A stretch of 48,521 nt of DNA from contig CACHZY010000014.1 of the NCBI GenBank assembly GCA_902584445.1, positions 1 to 48,521 of the forward strand, written 5' to 3'. The DNA is from an uncultured Bacteroidota bacterium. GTDB lineage: Bacteria; Bacteroidota; Bacteroidia; Flavobacteriales; Flavobacteriaceae. The notes below the pieces were generated by a model, which saw nothing but the letters and a program-made list of their open reading frames with translations, did not search any database and was not told the origin of the DNA. Below, in pieces: positions 15,958 to 24,118 of this stretch; position 1 is the stretch's first letter; every line of letters starts with the position of its first letter. The position numbers and the translations under genes are program-made.

Positions 15958-16242
15958 TTATTTTTTTGAAATTTTATTATTGCTGATTCCTCTCTGTCTA
16001 CTACATTTAAATCTATCGATATTACTTGCCCGCCTCTTTAAGTGTTTGGTTTTTCTTCCTTGAACCCTTGAGCGCCACATTTTAAAGCTACTGGGTTTCA
16101 TTTCACTTCTCATCAATTTAATTACTGCTTCTTCCTTTAATCCAAACTGTATTAGAATTGCATCAAAAGGAGTTCGGTCTTCCCATGCCATTTCTATTAT
16201 CCGGTCAATCTGTTTTGCAGAGAGTGAACTTTGTTTTTTCAT
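15958..16242 (-). CDS. TIGR03643 family small protein
   Basis: A 94-residue basic protein of the TIGR03643 family, defined by 'LSAKQIDRIIEMAWEDRTPFD' (split at about 7-27), 'FGLKEEAVIKLMRSEMKPSSFKMW' and 'RVQGRKTKHLKRR'. The N-terminal part looks like a small helix-turn-helix, and the C-terminus is strongly basic, so nucleic acid binding is plausible. It is the last gene of the photolyase operon: its ATG overlaps the stop of the atypical photolyase gene as ATGA (16239-16242). This pairing suggests that it helps that flavoprotein, but no function is established. Confidence 0.88.
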   Translation of the reverse strand: MKKQSSLSAKQIDRIIEMAWEDRTPFDAILIQFGLKEEAVIKLMRSEMKPSSFKMWRSRVQGRKTKHLKRRASNIDRFKCSRQRGISNNKISKK

Positions 16243-17726
16243 ATCATTAAACTATTTCTGTTAGCCAGTGTGTGTTTAGCAAGGATTCTTTTTCCTTCTT
16301 TTCTTACTGCAGGGCTTTTAGAGATCGGCCATAGGGTAGAGATGGCATTTTTTCTTGATTTTTCTAAATCGATTATTGGCTTAGGGTAGTCTTTCCCCAA
16401 TTTGAAACCATATATACTTGTCTCAAAAGAATTCATCAACCAAGGAGTGTGAACAATTGCTTCAGGTAACATCCTTAATTCAGGTATCCACTGTTTGATA
16501 AACACCCCTTTGGGATCATGTTCTTTGCCATTTTTTACTGGGTTGTAAATTCTTAACATATTTATTCCAGTCACTCCAGCCTGCATCTGTAATTGTGGAT
16601 AATGTATACCAGGTTCAAAATCCAAAAATTGACGAGCTAAGAAATGAGCACAAGCTTGCCATGGTTGCCACAAATGATGAGTAAAGAATGATACGATTAG
16701 AGAACGCATCCGGAAGTTTAAATACCCTGTTTCGACTAAACAACGCATCGCCGCATCTATCAAAGGAAATCCTGTGTTTCCTTTCTCCCAAGCCTCTATA
16801 TAGGATGGGTTAATAGTTTTTTTTAGTTGGTGATATCCTTTATTAATACTAGTAAATTCCATGGAACATTCCATTTCAAATTTTTGAATAAAATGAGATT
16901 GCCATCTTAAACGAGAACTAAATGCCCTTAGTGCGTAGCTCTTGTTTCCTTGTGTTCTCTCATATTCGGTTTTTTGCAATAATTGTCGCATAGAAATGTT
17001 GCCAAATGCTAAATAGGGAGACAATCTGCTACAGCTTCTTCGCGAGAGATCAGGTTTTGAAATGTGTTTTTGATAATTAAGATACCGATAATTAAAAAAT
17101 GATTTTAAATAGCGGTATGCGTTTTGATAACCTCCAATTTGGCGGATACCCTTTGACTCTGTTTGTAGGGTATCCTCCCCGAGATAAAACTCAAAACTTT
17201 CAATTATTTTGAGCGGTATGAAATTACTTACAGAAAATGAAATTTTTTCAATTTTTTGATTCATCAATTGATCCCATTTTTTTAACCAATCATTCCTATT
17301 TTTTATCCCTCTAAAAACACCTTGTTGGAGATACTCCTTAAAGGCAATTTTATTCTTTAGACACCAAGCCACCACATGTTGATCTCTTTTATAAGTTGCC
17401 ATTACCCCAGTTTCTTGATGTGCATGAACGGTTTTGATTTTGAATTTTCTTGAGATAGAAGCTAAAATTTTAATTACATCCCCTTTGGCAAGGCAAACAA
17501 CTGTTTTGTAATTTTTTAGCTGTTTATTAATATCCCGAATAGATTCCTTGATAAAATTGAAGTGACGAGAACTATAGTGTGGGTCTTTGAATAAAATATC
17601 CTCGAATACATAAACCAGAATGACTCTTTTTTTTGAGTTAATTGCCTCTAAAATAGGCTTGTGGTCATATAACCTTAAATCACGCTTTAACCAGACAATA
17701 TGTATGGGTTCAAAATTAGTATCCAT
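16239..17726 (-). CDS. Atypical photolyase/cryptochrome family flavoprotein
   Basis: A 495-residue protein with the N-terminal photolyase alpha/beta domain ('HIVWLKRDLRLYDHKP', about 9-24) and an FAD-binding helical domain with 'GNTGFPLIDAAMRCLVETGYLNFRMRS' (split over about 315-341). In canonical photolyases the next motif contains Asn next to flavin N5 and W-x-W (E. coli N378, W382, W384). Here the segment is 'DFEPGIHYPQLQMQAG' (369-384), giving His375, Leu379 and Met381 at those positions, while the middle Trp (W356, like E. coli W359) is kept. 'NPVKNGKEHDPKGVFIKQW' follows. I recall this clade in cyanobacteria and other bacteria but no assigned substrate. It overlaps the FeS photolyase gene by 11 nt. 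Confidence 0.85.
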   Translation of the reverse strand: MDTNFEPIHIVWLKRDLRLYDHKPILEAINSKKRVILVYVFEDILFKDPHYSSRHFNFIKESIRDINKQLKNYKTVVCLAKGDVIKILASISRKFKIKTVHAHQETGVMATYKRDQHVVAWCLKNKIAFKEYLQQGVFRGIKNRNDWLKKWDQLMNQKIEKISFSVSNFIPLKIIESFEFYLGEDTLQTESKGIRQIGGYQNAYRYLKSFFNYRYLNYQKHISKPDLSRRSCSRLSPYLAFGNISMRQLLQKTEYERTQGNKSYALRAFSSRLRWQSHFIQKFEMECSMEFTSINKGYHQLKKTINPSYIEAWEKGNTGFPLIDAAMRCLVETGYLNFRMRSLIVSFFTHHLWQPWQACAHFLARQFLDFEPGIHYPQLQMQAGVTGINMLRIYNPVKNGKEHDPKGVFIKQWIPELRMLPEAIVHTPWLMNSFETSIYGFKLGKDYPKPIIDLEKSRKNAISTLWPISKSPAVRKEGKRILAKHTLANRNSLMI

Positions 17727-19248
17727 CGGGATTCTGAATTATGGATAACGCTCTTTCTTTGATTTCTTGTTTCTCTAAAGCAGGGATCTTGTCCAATAGC
17801 CTCAGCATCATTGCCATGCGGTTGTTTTTACTGAAATGAGTTTTCTTATCTTCTAAGAAATTCCAATATAAACTATTAAAAGGACATGCATTCTCACCAA
17901 TTCTTTTGGTACGATCATAAGTGCATAATTCGCAATAATTACTCATTTTATGAATATAGGATCCTGAGGAAACATATGGTTTGGTGGCAACAATTCCACC
18001 ATCAGCCCATTGACTCATCCCTCTTGTATTTGGAAGCTGAACCCACTCAATTGCATCTGCATACACCCCTAAATACCAGGCATCCACTTCATCAGGATTA
18101 CACTGGATTAATAGGGCAAAATTTCCAGTAATCATGAGTCTTTGAATATGATGTGCGTAGGCAGTATCCAAGGAGTCTGAGATACTTTCATGAAGACAAT
18201 TCATCTTGGTAGCACCAGTCCAGTAAAAGTCTGGCAACTTGTTATAATTATCCAACTTATTGTTGGACTTGTAGCCTGGCATCTCTCTCCAATAGATTCC
18301 TCGCATATATTCTCGCCAGCCCAAAATTTGACGAATGAAACCCTCTACTTGAGAAAGTTCAATGACCCTACTGTTTTTGTAATAATGATTTACAACGGCT
18401 TCAATAACTTCTTTTGGATGGAGTATTTTGACATTTAAAGCAAATGAAATTCTAGAATGAAATAGATTACGTTGTTCATTGTGCATCGCGTCTTGATAGT
18501 CTCCAAAATGGACCAAAAGATGGTTGCAGAAATATTCTAATTGAGCAAAGGCTTCTTTACGGTCTGTGGGAAATAGATAGTGTTCTTGATGATAATTCCC
18601 AAAGGTTTTTATTCTGGCTTTTTGAATAGCGCTGAGAATTTCGCTTTGGGATCCTATCCCTGTTTTGTAGGCATTTGGAATAATTGGGGTACCTTTCCAT
18701 TTTTTGCGATTGTTTTTATCGAAGTTCCATTGTCCCCCAAGGGGTTGTCCATTATCCATCAAAATATCATATTTCTTTCTCATATTGCGATAGAAAAACT
18801 CCATAATCAATTGTTTTTTACCTTCAAAAAAAGATTTCAAATCTTCCCTTTTCGTTAAAAAATGTTCACTGTCGAAACTTTGAGAGGGAATATTAATCTC
18901 ACCACAGAGTTTTTTTAATTGATCATCCAGTCGGTATTCATCTGGTAATTGATATTCGAATTTTGAAATACTCTTTTCGGTGATTAGATTCTTGATGTTC
19001 TCGCTTAGGCTATTTTTTGAAATTTCGCTGCCAATATCAAAATACATTACCTGATGACCTTGAGATTTTAAAGCTTTTGCAAATGCTCGCATGGCTGAAA
19101 AAAAGGCGACTATTTTTTGGATGTGATGCAAAATATAATCAGTCTCTTGTCTGAGTTCATAGATTACATAAACAGTGTTCTGATCTTTCACTTTATACCA
19201 AGAATGATCTAGGTTTAGTTGATCTCCAAGTATTAATCTTAATTTCAT
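17716..19248 (-). CDS. FeS-type bacterial cryptochrome / (6-4) photolyase
   Basis: A 510-residue member of the iron-sulfur bacterial cryptochrome/photolyase group (PhrB/CryB). It starts '[17 protein letters not shown]', has a photolyase-related Rossmann-like domain, and ends with the [4Fe-4S] region. Four Cys are in the expected places: C351 ('MNCLHES'), C439 and C442 ('YCELC') and C455 ('NACPFNSLYW'), one residue off PhrB numbering. 'MITGNFALL' and 'WVQLPNTRGMSQWADGG' are also typical. Characterised members repair (6-4) photoproducts with FAD and a lumazine antenna. The start is ATG 19248, since it overlaps the CRY-DASH stop as ATGA; a frame from 19272 would add eight residues. Confidence 0.94.
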   Translation of the reverse strand: MKLRLILGDQLNLDHSWYKVKDQNTVYVIYELRQETDYILHHIQKIVAFFSAMRAFAKALKSQGHQVMYFDIGSEISKNSLSENIKNLITEKSISKFEYQLPDEYRLDDQLKKLCGEINIPSQSFDSEHFLTKREDLKSFFEGKKQLIMEFFYRNMRKKYDILMDNGQPLGGQWNFDKNNRKKWKGTPIIPNAYKTGIGSQSEILSAIQKARIKTFGNYHQEHYLFPTDRKEAFAQLEYFCNHLLVHFGDYQDAMHNEQRNLFHSRISFALNVKILHPKEVIEAVVNHYYKNSRVIELSQVEGFIRQILGWREYMRGIYWREMPGYKSNNKLDNYNKLPDFYWTGATKMNCLHESISDSLDTAYAHHIQRLMITGNFALLIQCNPDEVDAWYLGVYADAIEWVQLPNTRGMSQWADGGIVATKPYVSSGSYIHKMSNYCELCTYDRTKRIGENACPFNSLYWNFLEDKKTHFSKNNRMAMMLRLLDKIPALEKQEIKERALSIIQNPDGY

Positions 19249-20558
19249 TTGAACAACGTTTTTTGTAGCCAAAGATTTTGAAACCTAGAATTGGAATCAT
19301 ACCGTTGAGCTTGCCATTGAATATCAAACTTTCGGTCTCTGGGATCATTCCCAACCCCTGAAACATACATCCAATTACCATAATTACTGTGTACATCATA
19401 GTCAATCAAGAGGGATTCAAAATAGGCCGCCCCCATACGCCAATCCATTTTTAGATCTTTAGCAAAAAAACTTGCGACGTTTTGACGCCCACGATTGCTC
19501 ATCCAACCTGTTTGTTTTAACTCAATCATATTTGCATTTACAAAAGGCTCTGAAGTCTTGCCCTCACACCAGCTATCGAAAACTGAATAGGAGTTACCCC
19601 ATCTATAATCTCTTTCCAATATTCCTTTAGTTTTAAATATTTTATTGCCGTGTTTCATAGAGATGTATTTAAAATAATCTCTCCAAATCAATTCAAAAAT
19701 AAGCCAATAGGTCGACTGGTTTTTTTGGACGGATTTTTCATACCGCTTGATTTCCCAATAAATCATTTTTGGTGAAATAGATCCATTTGCGAGCCAAGGT
19801 GAAAACTTTGAGCTATAGTCGGTCCCTACCAGTCCATTTCGTGTGTTTTTATAATATGAAAGTTTTTTAGTTTCCCAAAAATAAAGTCTTAATCGCTCTA
19901 TTGCATTAGCAGTTCCTCCGCGAAATGGAAACGCGCTTCTGTAATCTGTTTCAGTGCTTTTTAATCCAAGGTCAGAAAGATTAGGTAACTCATAACTTTT
20001 TTCAAGTAAATTCGATGAAGGCAAAGGTTTGGTTAAAGATAAAACGGGTTTAATAGTTACATCTTTTTCACAACGCTTTCTAAATGAACCAAAAACCTCA
20101 GGAATTTGAGAAATATTAAAAGGTAATTCCTCTGGATGAAAAAGCATTTGTTCATAGTTTCTAACCCAACTAATCTTATCTTTAATGGCATTAGATACTT
20201 TTTTCTCTTCCTCTAACTCTTCTTGTGTCCACTCCCTTTGTAAATAAATACTTTTAACATGATGTTTTTTTACAATTTGAGGAATAGTTTGCTGAGGAGG
20301 TTTTAGGTCTATCACAAGTGTTATATTTAACTTTTTCAATGCTGCCTTAAGGTCTTCAACGCTTTCGATTAAAAATTTTGCTCTGTATTTTTCCGTTTTT
20401 TTAAAACCCCACCTGATGTTGCCATAATGACTAGGGTTAAATGTATAATACGCAATTACATTATCATAGCTTGCTATTGCTCGATTTAACCCCATATGAT
20501 CTTCGACCCGTAAATCGTTCCTAAACCAAACCAGTGCTGAAGTTATTTTCTTTGACAT
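19245..20558 (-). CDS. DASH family cryptochrome
   Basis: A 437-residue CRY-DASH protein: '[20 protein letters not shown]' (about 8-27) opens the antenna domain, '[20 protein letters not shown]' and '[23 protein letters not shown]' (split) belong to the helical domain, and '[21 protein letters not shown]' (split) with '[11 protein letters not shown]' are DASH signatures. The flavin-proximal Asn and Trp are kept. CRY-DASH proteins bind FAD and usually MTHF and repair CPDs mainly in single-stranded or loop DNA. It overlaps the DUF2256 gene upstream by 16 nt and the FeS photolyase downstream as ATGA, so the operon is translationally coupled here. Confidence 0.95.
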
Positions 20559-20677
20559 TTCTTACTACAATACTTTACATTATCCCAGTCTCTTTTCCAT
20601 TTCTTTCTCCAAAGAAAAGGCCTTTGGCATTTTATACAGATTTTAGCGGGTAGGTGTTGTTTCTTAATTCCCTTCAT
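20543..20677 (-). CDS. DUF2256 small zinc-ribbon-like protein
   Basis: A 44-residue protein, basic and Trp-rich: it starts '[17 protein letters not shown]', continues '[19 protein letters not shown]' and ends 'SKKCQRK'. Four Cys (14, 17, 37, 41) form CxxC and CxxxC pairs, as in a zinc knuckle or treble clef. This matches the DUF2256 family, which commonly sits beside photolyase or cryptochrome genes. The ATG overlaps the stop of the CPD photolyase as ATGA (20674-20677), and the 3' end overlaps the CRY-DASH start by 16 nt. The role is unknown; a DNA- or protein-binding accessory of photorepair is an inference from context. Confidence 0.9.
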
Positions 20678-21978
20678 GAAGGATTAAGAGCCGCTTTGTA
20701 TTTTGTCAAACACCTTTCACGAGCCATTTTATGTTCTACAATTTGAGTAGGGTAGGTAGGTTCATTCAAATCTTTTACCCATTTAGAAATATATTCCAAG
20801 CTTTTATCAAATTTTTTTATTTGCTCATGGGGATTAAATATTCTAAAATAAGGGGCTGCATCCACACCACATCCAGCTGACCATTGCCAGTTACCAACAT
20901 TGCTGGATTGTTCATAGTCAAATAGCTTTTCCGCAAAGTAGGCTTCCCCCCATCGCCAGTCGATCAGCAAATGTTTACACAAAAAACTAGCAACCAACAT
21001 TCTTACTCGGTTGTGCATGAAACCTGTCTCGTTCAATTGCCGCATTCCAGCATCTATAAGAGGGTAGCCCGTTTTTCCATTGCACCATTTTTCGAAATCT
21101 TTCTCATCATTTAAATAATCAATACGGTCATATTGTTTTTTAAAACATTGATTTACTGTGTAAGGAAAATGCCATATGATTTGCATGAAAAACTCTCTCC
21201 AAATTAATTCTTTGAGAAAAATATTATTCTTGCGCTTTGAAGATTTTTGAACTAATGTTCTAATACTTTGTGTACCAAATCTTAAATGAACTCCTAATCG
21301 AGAAGTGCTGTCAATATTAGGGAAATTTCTCGTTTCTTCGTACCTGTCAATGGTTTTATTATCGAATTTAAAGGGTTTGGGAGTAATTTTGGATTCTATA
21401 AAACCCAGATCATCCATAGTGAGTTCAGGAAGATTTGATCCCTTGTAAAATTTGTCTAAATGTTTCTCAGATGGAAAATATTCTATACCCTCTTCATCAA
21501 ATTTAGCCAACCATTTTCTGGAATAAGGAGTATAAACTACATACGGGTTTCCATCGTCCTTGGCAACTTCATTTTTCTCATAAATAACCTGGTCTTTGTA
21601 GGTCTCAAAGGCAATCCCTTTTTCCCTCAAAAAAGAGCCTATTTCGTCATCTCTTTTTAAAGCATAGGGTTCATAATCGTGATTTACAACTACTTTTTCT
21701 ACCGAAAAATTTTGGATAATTTTTTTTATAACAGCCCTGGGAGTGCCCCGATAAAGCCCTATCCGACACCTGTTCCCCCTCATGGTGTTATTGATGCCAC
21801 CCAAGGCGTTATAAATAAATGATAATCTTGCATCGTCTTTACTTAGTTTTGAAGTAATTTCAGTATCAAAAATGAAAATGGGAAGAACTTTATTTCCTCC
21901 TGTTAATGCTTTATACAATCCTTTATTATCGTCAAGCCTTAAGTCTCTTCTAAACCAAAAAACGGTCAGCTTTTCCAT
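20674..21978 (-). CDS. phrB: Cyclobutane pyrimidine dimer photolyase (class I)
   Basis: A 434-residue deoxyribodipyrimidine photolyase that uses blue light and FAD to split CPDs. '[22 protein letters not shown]' (split) begins the antenna domain, '[28 protein letters not shown]' (split) lies in the FAD domain, and '[29 protein letters not shown]' (split) holds the flavin-proximal Asn and both Trp of W-x-W, so the usual electron-transfer residues are present. The C-terminus is normal. The gene follows the SDR gene by 6 nt and overlaps the DUF2256 start as ATGA. It is the most canonical of the four photolyase-family proteins in this operon. Confidence 0.95.
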
Positions 21979-21984
21979 AAATAA

Positions 21985-22683
21985 TTAACTTTTAATACTA
22001 CCTATTCCACCATCAATTGTTATAGTTTGTGCTGTCATCCAGCTACTTTCATCACTGATAAGAAACTTTGCCATCTGAGCAATTTCCGTTGGATTTCCAA
22101 CCCTTTGAAGGGGATGTCTTGATGCTGCATTAGTTTTTTTAGTTTCGTTATTGAGAAATTTTTCAGCCATTCTCGTATCAACTAATGAAGGTGCAATTAC
22201 ATTAAATCTGATTTTAGGGGCTAATTCTGCGGCCAATGATCGAGCTAATCCTTCAAGTGCACCTTTAGCCGTTGCTACGGAACTGTGAAATGGCATTCCA
22301 GTTGTTACGGCGACTGTACTAAATAATACTACACTTGAGGGAATTTCACAATTTTGTAAATTATTCTGTACAGCTTGAAGAGTCTTAATTGCTCCCAACA
22401 CATTTATTGAAAAGTCCTGAATAAACACCTCTTGCTTTAATCCCTTAAATGGTCTGAGGTTAATACTTCCTGGACAATAGACAAAACCATTTAGTTGATC
22501 TGGAATTTTACTAATATCCAAATCGTCTTTTTCAACATCAAAAGGAAGGTAAGTTATTGGTAAATCACTAATGGAATCATTAGTTCTACTTGCAACGATG
22601 ACATTATTTTCTTGACAAAGTAGTTTTACCAATGCCAATCCCACGCCTGAACTTCCTCCTACAATAAGTATATTCTTTTTCAT
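21985..22683 (-). CDS. SDR family oxidoreductase lacking the catalytic Tyr
   Basis: A 232-residue Rossmann-fold protein of the short-chain dehydrogenase/reductase family. It begins 'MKKNILIVGGSSGVGLALVK' with the nucleotide-binding Gly-rich loop, has 'NVLGAIKTLQAV' in the middle, and ends with the typical 'DESSWMTAQTITIDGG'. In place of the Y-x-x-x-K dyad it has 'VATAK' (136-140): Lys140 is kept but Tyr is Val136, so it may not be a standard dehydrogenase. The start is ATG 22683, one nucleotide after the stop of the SRPBCC gene. It belongs to the photolyase operon, where this SDR type is common in Flavobacteriia. Confidence 0.88.
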   Translation of the reverse strand: MKKNILIVGGSSGVGLALVKLLCQENNVIVASRTNDSISDLPITYLPFDVEKDDLDISKIPDQLNGFVYCPGSINLRPFKGLKQEVFIQDFSINVLGAIKTLQAVQNNLQNCEIPSSVVLFSTVAVTTGMPFHSSVATAKGALEGLARSLAAELAPKIRFNVIAPSLVDTRMAEKFLNNETKKTNAASRHPLQRVGNPTEIAQMAKFLISDESSWMTAQTITIDGGIGSIKS

Positions 22684-22684
22684 A

Positions 22685-23155
22685 TTACTTGCTTTTATAT
22701 TCTCCAAACAGCTCTATCAGTTTTTTTTTTCTGTATTGAAAGATTTCATCGAGCTTAGGTTTTACTATGATGGGTTGAGCAATTTGACCCAAAATACCCA
22801 TCGGTATTTTATAATCAATTATATCTTCCATTTCAACTCCGTTTTTGATCGATTTAATAAAGTGTTTATGGTGCCATAAAGAATATGGACCAAAACGCTG
22901 TTCGTCAACAAAATATTTACCCTCACGCACGTGGGTAATCTCAGTTACCCATTTAGTACGAATTCCAAGAATAGGAGTTACAATATATTGTATGATTTGA
23001 CCAGGATACATTTTTTTTTCTGCACCACTCAAAATCTCAAACCCCATGTAGTCTGGGGTGATAGTCTTCAGATTAACTGGATCTGATAAAAATTCCCATG
23101 CTTCGGACGTTGAAATGGGAAGGTTTTGTATAATATTTAAGCGGTATATTTTCAT
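22685..23155 (-). CDS. SRPBCC family ligand-binding protein, first gene of photolyase operon
   Basis: A 156-residue SRPBCC (START-like) protein: 'LPISTSEAWEFLSDPVNLKTITP' (split) is the typical opening helix-turn, then 'PILGIRTKWVTEIT' and 'FGPYSLWHHKHFI', and a C-terminal long helix ('KLDEIFQYRKKKLIELFG'). Such proteins bind hydrophobic ligands in a cavity; the ligand is not known, though flavin or lipid partners are possible. ATG 23155 is preferred over ATG 23173, because the latter lies within the predicted -7 box (23171-23178). It opens the eight-gene photolyase operon. Confidence 0.86.
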   Translation of the reverse strand: MKIYRLNIIQNLPISTSEAWEFLSDPVNLKTITPDYMGFEILSGAEKKMYPGQIIQYIVTPILGIRTKWVTEITHVREGKYFVDEQRFGPYSLWHHKHFIKSIKNGVEMEDIIDYKIPMGILGQIAQPIIVKPKLDEIFQYRKKKLIELFGEYKSK

Positions 23156-23170
23156 TGAATCTTGTATATA

Positions 23171-23178
23171 CAAATATA
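23171..23178 (-). promoter_or_regulatory. -7 box of the photolyase operon promoter
   Basis: TATATTTG on the minus strand matches TANNTTTG. No TTG box is present 17-23 nt upstream; instead the 32-bp inverted repeat begins 5 nt upstream, so this promoter probably depends on, or is blocked by, a regulator binding there. Confidence 0.6.
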
Positions 23179-23182
23179 CAAA

Positions 23183-23214
23183 TTGTTTAATATATTCATT
23201 AAAATATTAAACAA
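23183..23214. promoter_or_regulatory. 32-bp inverted repeat, putative operator of the photolyase operon
   Basis: Two perfect 11-nt arms, TTGTTTAATAT (23183-23193) and ATATTAAACAA (23204-23214), are separated by 10 nt. The repeat covers roughly positions -19 to -50 of the leftward photolyase promoter, where the -33 element should be, and is 61 nt upstream of the divergent DUF2911 ATG. This is a typical place for a dimeric regulator. Light-responsive MerR-type (CarH/LitR) regulators control photolyase genes in some bacteria, but no regulator gene lies in the window. Confidence 0.65.
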
Positions 23215-23275: not shown

Positions 23276-24118
23276 ATGAAAAATTATCTTTTAGTTTTCC
23301 TGCTGATAAGTTGCATAGGATTAAATTCTCAGGTTTTAACACCTCAGCCAAGTCCAAGAGCTAAAGTCTCTCAAAGGGTAGGGTTAACTAAAGTTGAGAT
23401 TGATTATTCTCGCCCTGCTGCCCGTGGAAGAAAAATTATAGGAAATTTGGTTAGATACAATGAAATTTGGAGAACCGGCGCAAATAAAAATACGATTATT
23501 TCTTTTTCAGATCCAGTACAAATTGAGGGTAATACTCTTCCTGCAGGTCAATATGCTATATACACATTACCTAGCGAAAATAAATGGAAAGTATATTTCT
23601 ACAAGTCAACTAATAACTGGGGACTTCCTAATCCCTGGGATGAGTCTCAGGTTGCTCTATCTTTAATTACTAATCCTTATTTTTATGATTATAAAACTGA
23701 AAATTTTACTATATCTATTTCAGATATTCATAGTGATTCTGCCCATCTGAATTTGATCTGGGAAAAGACTTTAATAAGTATCCCCTTTGAAGTACCAACC
23801 AAGGTGAAAACGATGCAAAGTATAAATGAAACCATGACTGGAAACCCAAAACCAAATGACTATTACAATGCTGCATTATATTTTCTTCAAGAAAAAATAG
23901 ATTTAAATCAAGCAAAAGATTGGATGGAAACAGCTATTGCTAGAAGAGATACTCCTGCTTTTTGGATGTATTATCGTCACGCTTTGATTTTGTCAGAATT
24001 AAATGATAATAAAGCCGCATTAAAGTCTGCAAAAAAATCTTTAGCTCTAGCTGAAAAAGCTCAGAATAAGGATTATGTAATTTTAAATAAAGAACTCATT
24101 GAAAAGTATAGCAAGTAG
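23276..24118 (+). CDS. DUF2911 exported protein with TPR-like C-terminus
   Basis: A 280-residue protein with a signal peptide ('MKNYLLVFLLISCIGLNSQ') and a DUF2911 domain: 'SPRAKVSQRVGLTKVEIDYSRP' (split), 'ARGRKIIGNLV', 'WRTGANKNTIISFSDPVQIEG' (split) and 'LPAGQYAIYTLP'. The last 90 residues ('YYNAALYFLQEKIDLNQAKDWM' split, 'FWMYYRHALILSELNDNKAALKSAK' split) form TPR-like helical pairs. DUF2911 proteins are abundant exported proteins of unknown function in Bacteroidota. A second copy without the TPR part is at 35435-35965. It converges on the symporter gene with 4 nt between stops. Confidence 0.9.
   Translation: MKNYLLVFLLISCIGLNSQVLTPQPSPRAKVSQRVGLTKVEIDYSRPAARGRKIIGNLVRYNEIWRTGANKNTIISFSDPVQIEGNTLPAGQYAIYTLPSENKWKVYFYKSTNNWGLPNPWDESQVALSLITNPYFYDYKTENFTISISDIHSDSAHLNLIWEKTLISIPFEVPTKVKTMQSINETMTGNPKPNDYYNAALYFLQEKIDLNQAKDWMETAIARRDTPAFWMYYRHALILSELNDNKAALKSAKKSLALAEKAQNKDYVILNKELIEKYSK

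Follow-up and report, generated by a model that had tools for sequence, protein, structure and literature searches.

Introduction

In Proteobacteria (sigmaE-ChrR and MerR/LitR systems; Vibrio cholerae), blue light co-induces photolyase-family genes together with genes for membrane protection and for protection against reactive oxygen species (ROS) (PMC5241685, available text). Here we describe an operon of eight genes, four of which encode photolyase-like flavoproteins, on contig CACHZY010000014.1 of an uncultured member of the Flavobacteriaceae (assembly GCA_902584445.1, a metagenome-assembled genome (MAG) that is 69% complete); the whole stretch analysed, 48,521 nt, is referred to as the window. 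Our analysis points, with moderate confidence, to a condensed flavobacterial operon for light or photo-oxidative stress, which would stand under a shared palindrome and be co-regulated with photoprotection and a proton pump. Like the Proteobacterial blue-light and singlet-oxygen regulons, it groups photolyase-family genes with putative protection genes. Unlike them, its partners across relatives are FolE, TspO, glutathione peroxidase, SDR, SRPBCC and rhodopsin, and its palindrome and spacing are not described in the available text of PMC5241685; furthermore, no B12-binding protein was found in the 69% complete MAG, in which ChrR was not searched for.

Two cyanobacterial systems are also close. 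Synechococcus PCC 7335 carries a two-gene, UV-B-inducible photolyase operon, whose description, in its available part, counts only two earlier reports of photolyases in operons (PMC9649867). That operon resembles ours in holding several photolyases; it differs in having two genes, as against the 8-16 families found here, and in its second enzyme, which is class-II-like, whereas the atypical flavoprotein of our operon, here called PHLX, is not. Picocyanobacteria possess multiple photolyase types, Phr1-Phr8, with the genes scattered in RS9916; Phr7 has an N-terminal flavin adenine dinucleotide (FAD) domain and repairs single-strand cyclobutane pyrimidine dimers (CPDs) (PMC9426592, available text). 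Many photolyase types in sunlit marine bacteria are thus common to both, and Phr7 resembles, by description only, the 'cpdL' proteins found beside DUF2805 in our loci; in contrast to our operon, the RS9916 genes are scattered, and no small partners are reported in the text available.

In flavobacteria themselves, photolyase-like flavoproteins were found in 6/6 proteorhodopsin-bearing and 0/13 other genomes (Woyke 2009, PMC2668756, available text). That study and ours both tie a photolyase-like gene to rhodopsin, the identity of their gene with PHLX not being established; our association is strong and not exclusive, and no shared operator is reported in the available part of PMC2668756. The Dokdonia PRO95 paper, as far as its text was available, reports that an RpoD consensus promoter precedes opsin in MED134 and not in PRO95 or 4H-3-7-5, and does not describe the palindrome there (PMC3587595). 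More broadly, we did not meet this palindrome in the available proteorhodopsin-promoter literature, from which we do not claim its absence from print.

Results

Organization and conservation of the operon

The eight genes run leftward at 15958-23155, and open reading frame (ORF) inspection gave each an ATG start. The operon and its upstream elements are as follows.

22685..23155, minus strand: SRPBCC/START-fold protein P0008, 156 amino acids from ATG (AlphaFold and Foldseek)
21985..22683, minus strand: SDR oxidoreductase P0007, 232 amino acids from ATG (PF13561, 124.1 bits)
20674..21978, minus strand: class-I-like CPD photolyase P0006, 434 amino acids (PF03441, 238.9 bits; CPD-repair residues kept)
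20543..20677, minus strand: DUF2256 protein P0005, 44 amino acids, zinc-ribbon-like CxxC...CSxxC (PF10013, 73.7 bits)
19245..20558, minus strand: CRY-DASH P0004, 437 amino acids (TIGR02765, 499 bits)
17716..19248, minus strand: FeS-type bacterial (6-4) photolyase P0003, 510 amino acids from ATG (PF04244, 249.1 bits; four Fe-S cysteines)
16239..17726, minus strand: PHLX P0002, photolyase-like flavoprotein, 495 amino acids (Arg272, Phe338 and His375 replace E. coli Glu274, Asn341 and Asn378)
15958..16242, minus strand: DUF2805/TIGR03643 protein P0001, 94 amino acids, basic, predicted four-helix, helix-turn-helix (HTH)-like (TIGR03643, 123.9 bits)
23184..23213, no strand: palindrome TGTTTAA-N16-TTAAACA, putative operator, 28 nt before the first start codon
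23171..23178, minus strand: TATATTTG, a match, in sequence only, to the flavobacterial -7 element TAnnTTTG

The junctions, taken in transcription order, measure +1, +6, -4, -16, -4, -11 and -4 nt (positive values are gaps, negative ones overlaps), which confirms the tight arrangement described in an earlier note on this DNA, where no gap exceeds 6 nt and overlaps of the ATGA kind or of 11-16 nt predominate. That note extended the feature from 15958 to 23214: its eight genes stand, while the first gene begins at ATG 23155 and not at 23214, and 23156-23214 contains the promoter region and a conserved palindrome. All three PF00875 genes and the sole PF04244 gene found in the MAG lie inside the operon. 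Pfam and NCBIfam name seven of the eight proteins; P0008 matched no model of either at E<=0.001. For this protein AlphaFold predicts, at a mean pLDDT of 87.2, an SRPBCC/START helix-grip fold, and a Foldseek comparison of the model gave 288 PDB hits at E<=0.001.

We assessed conservation of the row at 80 PHLX loci (the best 80 of 587 confirmed relatives, our named loci; 19/80 stretches are shorter than 12 kb). All eight families were co-directional at 18/80 loci, and five (L198, L200, L204, L206 and L265) showed the window's exact order; in L265 some 1.65 kb separates DUF2256 from DASH. The rarity of the full set in related genomes, which the earlier note named as a ground for refutation, thus does not apply among close relatives. 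The further proposal of a fixed ratio is unsupported because gene order and linkage vary: at 17/80 loci none of the other seven families was co-directional within the stretch. Seven loci (L208, L210, L211, L215, L216, L219 and L226) carry a 16-family version on one strand, comprising a TetR-like protein, a UbiB/ABC1-like kinase, a flavin reductase, an NAD(P)-binding/DUF2867 protein, DUF2256, CRY-DASH, the FeS-type photolyase and PHLX, along with an unnamed 142-aa family, DUF2805, FolE, SDR, glutathione peroxidase, TspO, SRPBCC and CPD photolyase. By its gene content, we read the window's operon as a condensed form of this conserved flavobacterial module. The wider module (FolE, glutathione peroxidase, TspO, flavin reductase, TetR and UbiB-like kinase) and the shared palindrome go beyond the earlier note. 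In many module loci the kinase gene follows the TetR-like gene, overlapping it or close by (e.g. L098:728-2700).

An exactly spaced palindrome precedes module genes and rhodopsin

Alignment of the upstream regions of six SRPBCC-first operons revealed TTTTGTTTAA-N16-TTAAAC with an invariant spacer. In 4.08 Mb (all fetched loci and the window) we counted 61 palindrome sites, compared with 1, 0, 0, 1 and 2 in five order-1 shuffles. The full-arm palindrome occurred 59 times with a spacer of 16 and six times with a spacer of 17, and never with any other spacer from 8 to 24. Within -30 to +63 nt of a module gene start lay 56 of the 61 sites, before TetR-like (21), 142-aa family (15), SRPBCC (9), flavin reductase (3), DUF2256 (2), FolE (2), PHLX (2) and DUF2805 (2) genes; of the remaining five, one stands before a rhodopsin (L033), one before an ECF sigma factor (L163), two before fasciclin genes (L220 and L223) and one 152 nt ahead of an SDR gene (L037). 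Promoters of flavobacteria follow the consensus TTG-N-TANNTTTG (PMC3587595, available text). Between operator and first start codon, at 23162-23173, the window also contains the perfect short palindrome TTGTATATACAA, which was absent from the five relatives' upstream regions compared and was found in the window only.

Because the L033 site precedes a rhodopsin gene, we examined rhodopsin upstream regions as an independent test: 450 nt were scanned before 20 rhodopsin genes from other flavobacteria, picked solely by PHLX presence or absence. A perfect palindrome stood upstream of 9/20, and a site with at most one mismatch upstream of 15/20 (10/14 with PHLX and 5/6 without), as against 12/350 other upstream regions used as the control. 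The spacer result, the shuffles and this rhodopsin test are free of locus-choice bias. Genome-wide, the window site is the sole exact palindrome in its own MAG (backwards-pattern control, 0), and the genomes of six relatives hold 2 to 8 places each. The sites examined there include ones before CrtI (G198 and G484), FolE and fasciclin (G485), fasciclin (G226) and CHRD lipoprotein (G484 and G218) genes, with CrtI called by NF058655 and rhodopsin, fasciclin and FolE by Pfam. By coordinates, a further site in G218 (C15:18248) lies about 0.7 kb ahead of that genome's unlinked FeS-type photolyase gene. From these contexts we infer that the module and the rhodopsin, CrtI, FolE and fasciclin genes may form one light or photo-oxidative regulon.

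The TetR-like protein (e.g. L098:728-1381) is a suggestive candidate for the regulator of the palindrome. It occurs in 130/199 Flavobacteriaceae, and in 15/15 genomes with a rhodopsin site compared with 3/5 without (p 0.053); it was not found in the window's own 69% complete MAG. A CarH/LitR-type regulator was also considered and is made less likely by the lack of any match to the B12-binding domain PF02310 in that incomplete MAG. A more specific proposal, possible if doubtful, is a dedicated flavobacterial light regulon, in which the TetR-like protein would act at TGTTTAA-N16-TTAAACA, before its own gene too, and drive the proteorhodopsin, carotenoid, FolE and photolyase operons; PHLX would then be a non-repair light or redox sensor, and TIGR03643 and DUF2256 nucleic-acid-binding effectors.

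The palindrome might also answer a non-light signal (e.g. growth phase, or stress to the envelope or redox balance) or serve a housekeeping regulator, the light genes being part of a larger regulon. Exact sites before fasciclin genes, CHRD-domain lipoproteins, a TetR-headed UbiB-like kinase operon and other genes are consistent with this, as is G314, where 2/3 sites precede genes without evident light role. We nevertheless consider it unlikely, given that the module follows 56/61 locus sites (partly by locus choice), that 15/20 rhodopsins carry the palindrome, and that CrtI stands behind it in two genomes examined.

PHLX lacks the repair residues of ordinary photolyases

PHLX belongs to the photolyase superfamily by its domains (PF00875, 70.3 bits; PF03441, 213 bits; both above cut-off) and reaches no NCBIfam class cut-off (TIGR02765, 156.5 bits vs 317.05). 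In a quick tree, with 11 other rows per class drawn at random and the FeS class outside it, DASH, CPD and PHLX form separate clades (99-100% SH-aLRT support). For the alignment of PHLX, CPD, DASH and SPL-type sequences, E. coli Phr served as numbering reference, with Glu274, Trp277, Asn341, Met345, Asn378, Trp382 and Trp384 having the positions and roles that we take to be those of that enzyme. In 105/105 PHLX homologues (103 distinct), Glu274 is replaced by Arg, Asn341 by Phe, Asn378 by His and Trp384 by Met. Met345 and Trp382 are likewise replaced in all 105, in nearly all by Ala/Ser and by an aliphatic residue or Phe (Leu/Phe/Ile), respectively. The same alignment shows Glu274, Asn341, Asn378 and Trp382 kept in 42 CPD, 78 DASH and 18 SPL-type sequences. 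The Trp triad 306-359-382 is also broken in PHLX: Trp359 is kept in 104/105, position 306 is mostly Lys, and position 382 is Leu/Phe/Ile.

Since Glu274, Asn341, Asn378 and Trp384 are replaced in all homologues examined, PHLX is probably no ordinary photolyase. That these replacements are invariant points to selection for another chemistry and not to decay; most likely PHLX senses light or redox state through its flavin, or is a flavoenzyme with a new activity. A bifunctional enzyme of the PhrSph98 type was rejected, since the PhrSph98 group is class-II-like (compared by description only). Thus, of the four photolyase/cryptochrome lineages named in the earlier note, four flavoproteins of distinct lineages remain, while its complete light-repair module with four repair lineages is not supported, PHLX being without the tested CPD-repair residues in 105/105.

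A related possibility is that the operon is a fixed-ratio, complete repair unit, in which PHLX is a fourth repair photolyase with an unusual lesion or substrate and DUF2256 and TIGR03643 partner particular photolyases. The tight gene overlaps would suit such a unit, as would the order DUF2256-DASH-FeS-PHLX at 26/80 PHLX loci, the retention of the FAD-site residues Trp277, Arg342 and Asp372 in 105/105 PHLX sequences, and the renewed adjacency of PHLX and DUF2256 in Salinivibrio and Tritonibacter. The uniform loss from PHLX of residues that the CPD, DASH and SPL-type groups keep speaks against it, as does the spread of DUF2256 neighbours over five photolyase classes (below), and we judge its probability to be low.

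PHLX was present in 65/199 sampled Flavobacteriaceae (605-752 bits; next best matches, 237 bits or less). Rhodopsin occurred in 51 of the 199 genomes (a G338 match below the cut-off was left out): 35 had both, 30 PHLX only, 16 rhodopsin only and 118 neither (Fisher p 7e-10, kinship ignored). Relatives of PHLX with 38-46% identity occur in Vibrio, Salinivibrio, Pseudoalteromonas and Tritonibacter, DUF2256 being the gene next to PHLX in Salinivibrio and Tritonibacter.

The CPD, CRY-DASH and FeS-type enzymes

Class I CPD photolyases repair CPDs in duplex DNA, CRY-DASH enzymes CPDs in single strands, and FeS-type enzymes (6-4) products. P0006 retains all seven reference residues (Glu274, Trp277, Asn341, Met345, Asn378, Trp382 and Trp384), as do 42/42 CPD-group sequences; position 306 is Trp in 41/42 of the group and Tyr in P0006, which lies below the NCBIfam equivalog cut-offs (343 vs 884.6 bits and 292.5 vs 506 bits). 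P0004 exceeds the CRY-DASH cut-off of 317.05 bits. The DPRP domain of P0003 scores far above its cut-off of 22.1 bits, PDB entry 7ykn matches at E 1e-155, and the Fe-S cysteines 359, 447, 450 and 463 are present in the window and in 56/83 relatives. The other 27/83 class members, which have none of the four cysteines, occupy the same operon place in relatives (e.g. L095:12177-13664).

DUF2256 and DUF2805/TIGR03643 track the FeS-type photolyase across genomes

Both small window proteins are strongly basic (predicted isoelectric point 11.1 for DUF2805/TIGR03643 and 10.4 for DUF2256). P0005 exceeds the DUF2256 cut-off of 25 bits and has two Cys pairs, whose cysteines are invariant in 24/24 aligned sequences; P0001 exceeds the TIGR03643 cut-off of 66.55 bits. 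AlphaFold models the latter as four helices (mean pLDDT 77), for which the best Foldseek hit in the PDB, at E 2.1, falls short of the E<=0.001 threshold; the predicted helices and the sequence suggest an HTH-like protein.

We then compared gene neighbourhoods. The DUF2805 sample covers the surroundings of 89/93 matches in 296 Bacteroidota genomes (the rest being the window and three paralogues, in G025, G222 and G245); the DUF2256 sample adds 68 regions, giving 89 genes by ORF scan among 92 regions, with the weak matches G011 and G082 left out. A photolyase-family gene lay within 3 kb on the same strand of DUF2256 in 58/89 cases and within 60 nt in 43/89. The neighbours within 60 nt were DASH 20, FeS 11, PHLX 7, SPL-type 7 and CPD 3, with no formal expectation computed. 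For DUF2805, 24/76 genes had a photolyase-family gene within 3 kb on either strand, a count that leaves out a paralogue group of ~97-aa frames. The proposal that the two proteins partner particular flavoproteins is not supported, because many lie away from photolyases (31/89 and 52/76) and the DUF2256 neighbours vary among five classes. Away from photolyases, clustering showed no single recurrent neighbour group for DUF2256 (an SDR-like cluster was near eight).

Across the 296 Bacteroidota genomes, DUF2256 and the FeS-type photolyase occurred together in 86, DUF2256 only in 8 and the photolyase only in 14; DUF2805 and the photolyase together in 70, DUF2805 only in 6 and the photolyase only in 30; and DUF2805 and DUF2256 together in 70, DUF2805 only in 6 and DUF2256 only in 24. 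In a sample of 30 Flavobacteriaceae, the identical 17 genomes held DUF2256 and the FeS-type photolyase; DUF2805 occurred in all of these and in one more. Both small proteins thus track the FeS-type photolyase across genomes, though they are often unlinked to photolyase genes. In the literature searched, as far as its text was available, there was no link between DUF2256 and photolyases and nothing on TIGR03643; mentions of DUF2805 and DUF2256 carried no such link.

Several other contexts were observed. In place of PHLX, a short SPL-type protein comprising only the FAD domain often overlaps DUF2805 or directly adjoins it (L033, L034, L038, L055, L066, L070 and L072). The second paralogue group (L076-L090, ~97-aa frames, mostly genus g2) was near a photolyase in 0/14 and has its own conserved neighbours, e.g. 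a 618-aa protein. On an Acinetobacter plasmid (L120:8998-10946), genes for NudC, lipocalin, a desaturase and a cyclopropane synthase adjoin a trio of TIGR03643, DUF2256 and FeS-type photolyase, and Nostoc and Vibrio plasmids carry TIGR03643 with no photolyase within the stretch. In Thioclava (L124:8001-8797), an SOS-response-associated peptidase gene 5 nt after DUF2256 provides another DNA-damage link.

A mobile or 'selfish' cassette, whose genes are gained and lost jointly with no functional partnership, would fit the patchy distribution inside a single family (the identical 17/30 genomes hold DUF2256 and the FeS-type photolyase) and the plasmid versions in Acinetobacter, Salinivibrio and Tritonibacter, but is very improbable, because pieces are co-present while unlinked (e.g. 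G084 and G289, with DUF2805 on another contig or far from DUF2256) and unlinked units share the palindrome (DUF2256 in L190 and L192; FlavR in L134), so that co-presence and palindrome with genes far apart are seen in part.

A DUF2911 lipoprotein-like gene (23276-24118, plus strand; Pfam run on the window copy only) diverges from the operon with the palindrome between them, and DUF2911-like genes stand likewise across the palindrome in G314, G198 and G226.

Discussion

We favour the reading that the window holds a condensed light or photo-oxidative-stress operon. Its eight overlapping genes would be read from one promoter region with the 30-bp palindrome, which in relatives also stands before other module transcription units and before rhodopsin, CrtI, FolE and fasciclin genes. 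A light- or ROS-controlled regulator would act at the palindrome, and the repair enzymes P0006, P0004 and P0003 would rise together with photoprotection and the proton pump. PHLX, its flavin fold kept and the known repair residues not, may serve as a light or redox sensor or as a new flavoenzyme. DUF2256 and DUF2805/TIGR03643 are most likely nucleic-acid-binding accessories of the whole photolyase system, as their predicted properties suggest, and SRPBCC and SDR might be ligand or lipid and redox helpers, respectively.

Several points weigh against this reading. Light as the signal is suggested by gene content. The 61 sites include one duplicate, L092 and L273 being a single contig, and since the loci were chosen for module genes, the closeness of sites to such genes follows in part from that choice. 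Five of the 20 rhodopsins have 2-4 mismatches, and at the rhodopsin gene of the window's own MAG there is only a two-mismatch site, ~21 nt upstream of the start. A perfect site also occurs in nine of the 350 control regions, chance and real sites among these not being separated. In the six relatives' genomes, gene context was examined for part of the sites, and some of those examined precede genes without evident light role. Among the small proteins, a distance limit of 3 kb leaves 31/89 DUF2256 genes (same strand) and 52/76 DUF2805 genes (either strand) with no photolyase-family neighbour, and the co-occurrence figures have the within-Flavobacteriaceae comparison as their only control for kinship.

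For the control of flavobacterial proteorhodopsin and photoprotection, an exactly spaced site common to rhodopsin and repair operons would provide both bait for the regulator and a means of listing the regulon by sequence. PHLX represents a widespread flavoprotein class whose invariant, non-photolyase active site makes it a possible photoreceptor or a possible source of new flavin photochemistry, and two common small proteins, DUF2256 and TIGR03643, gain a concrete context. Most interesting, in our view, are the uniformly rewritten active site of PHLX and the exactly spaced putative operator that would tie DNA repair to the rhodopsin, carotenoid and pterin genes of these flavobacteria.

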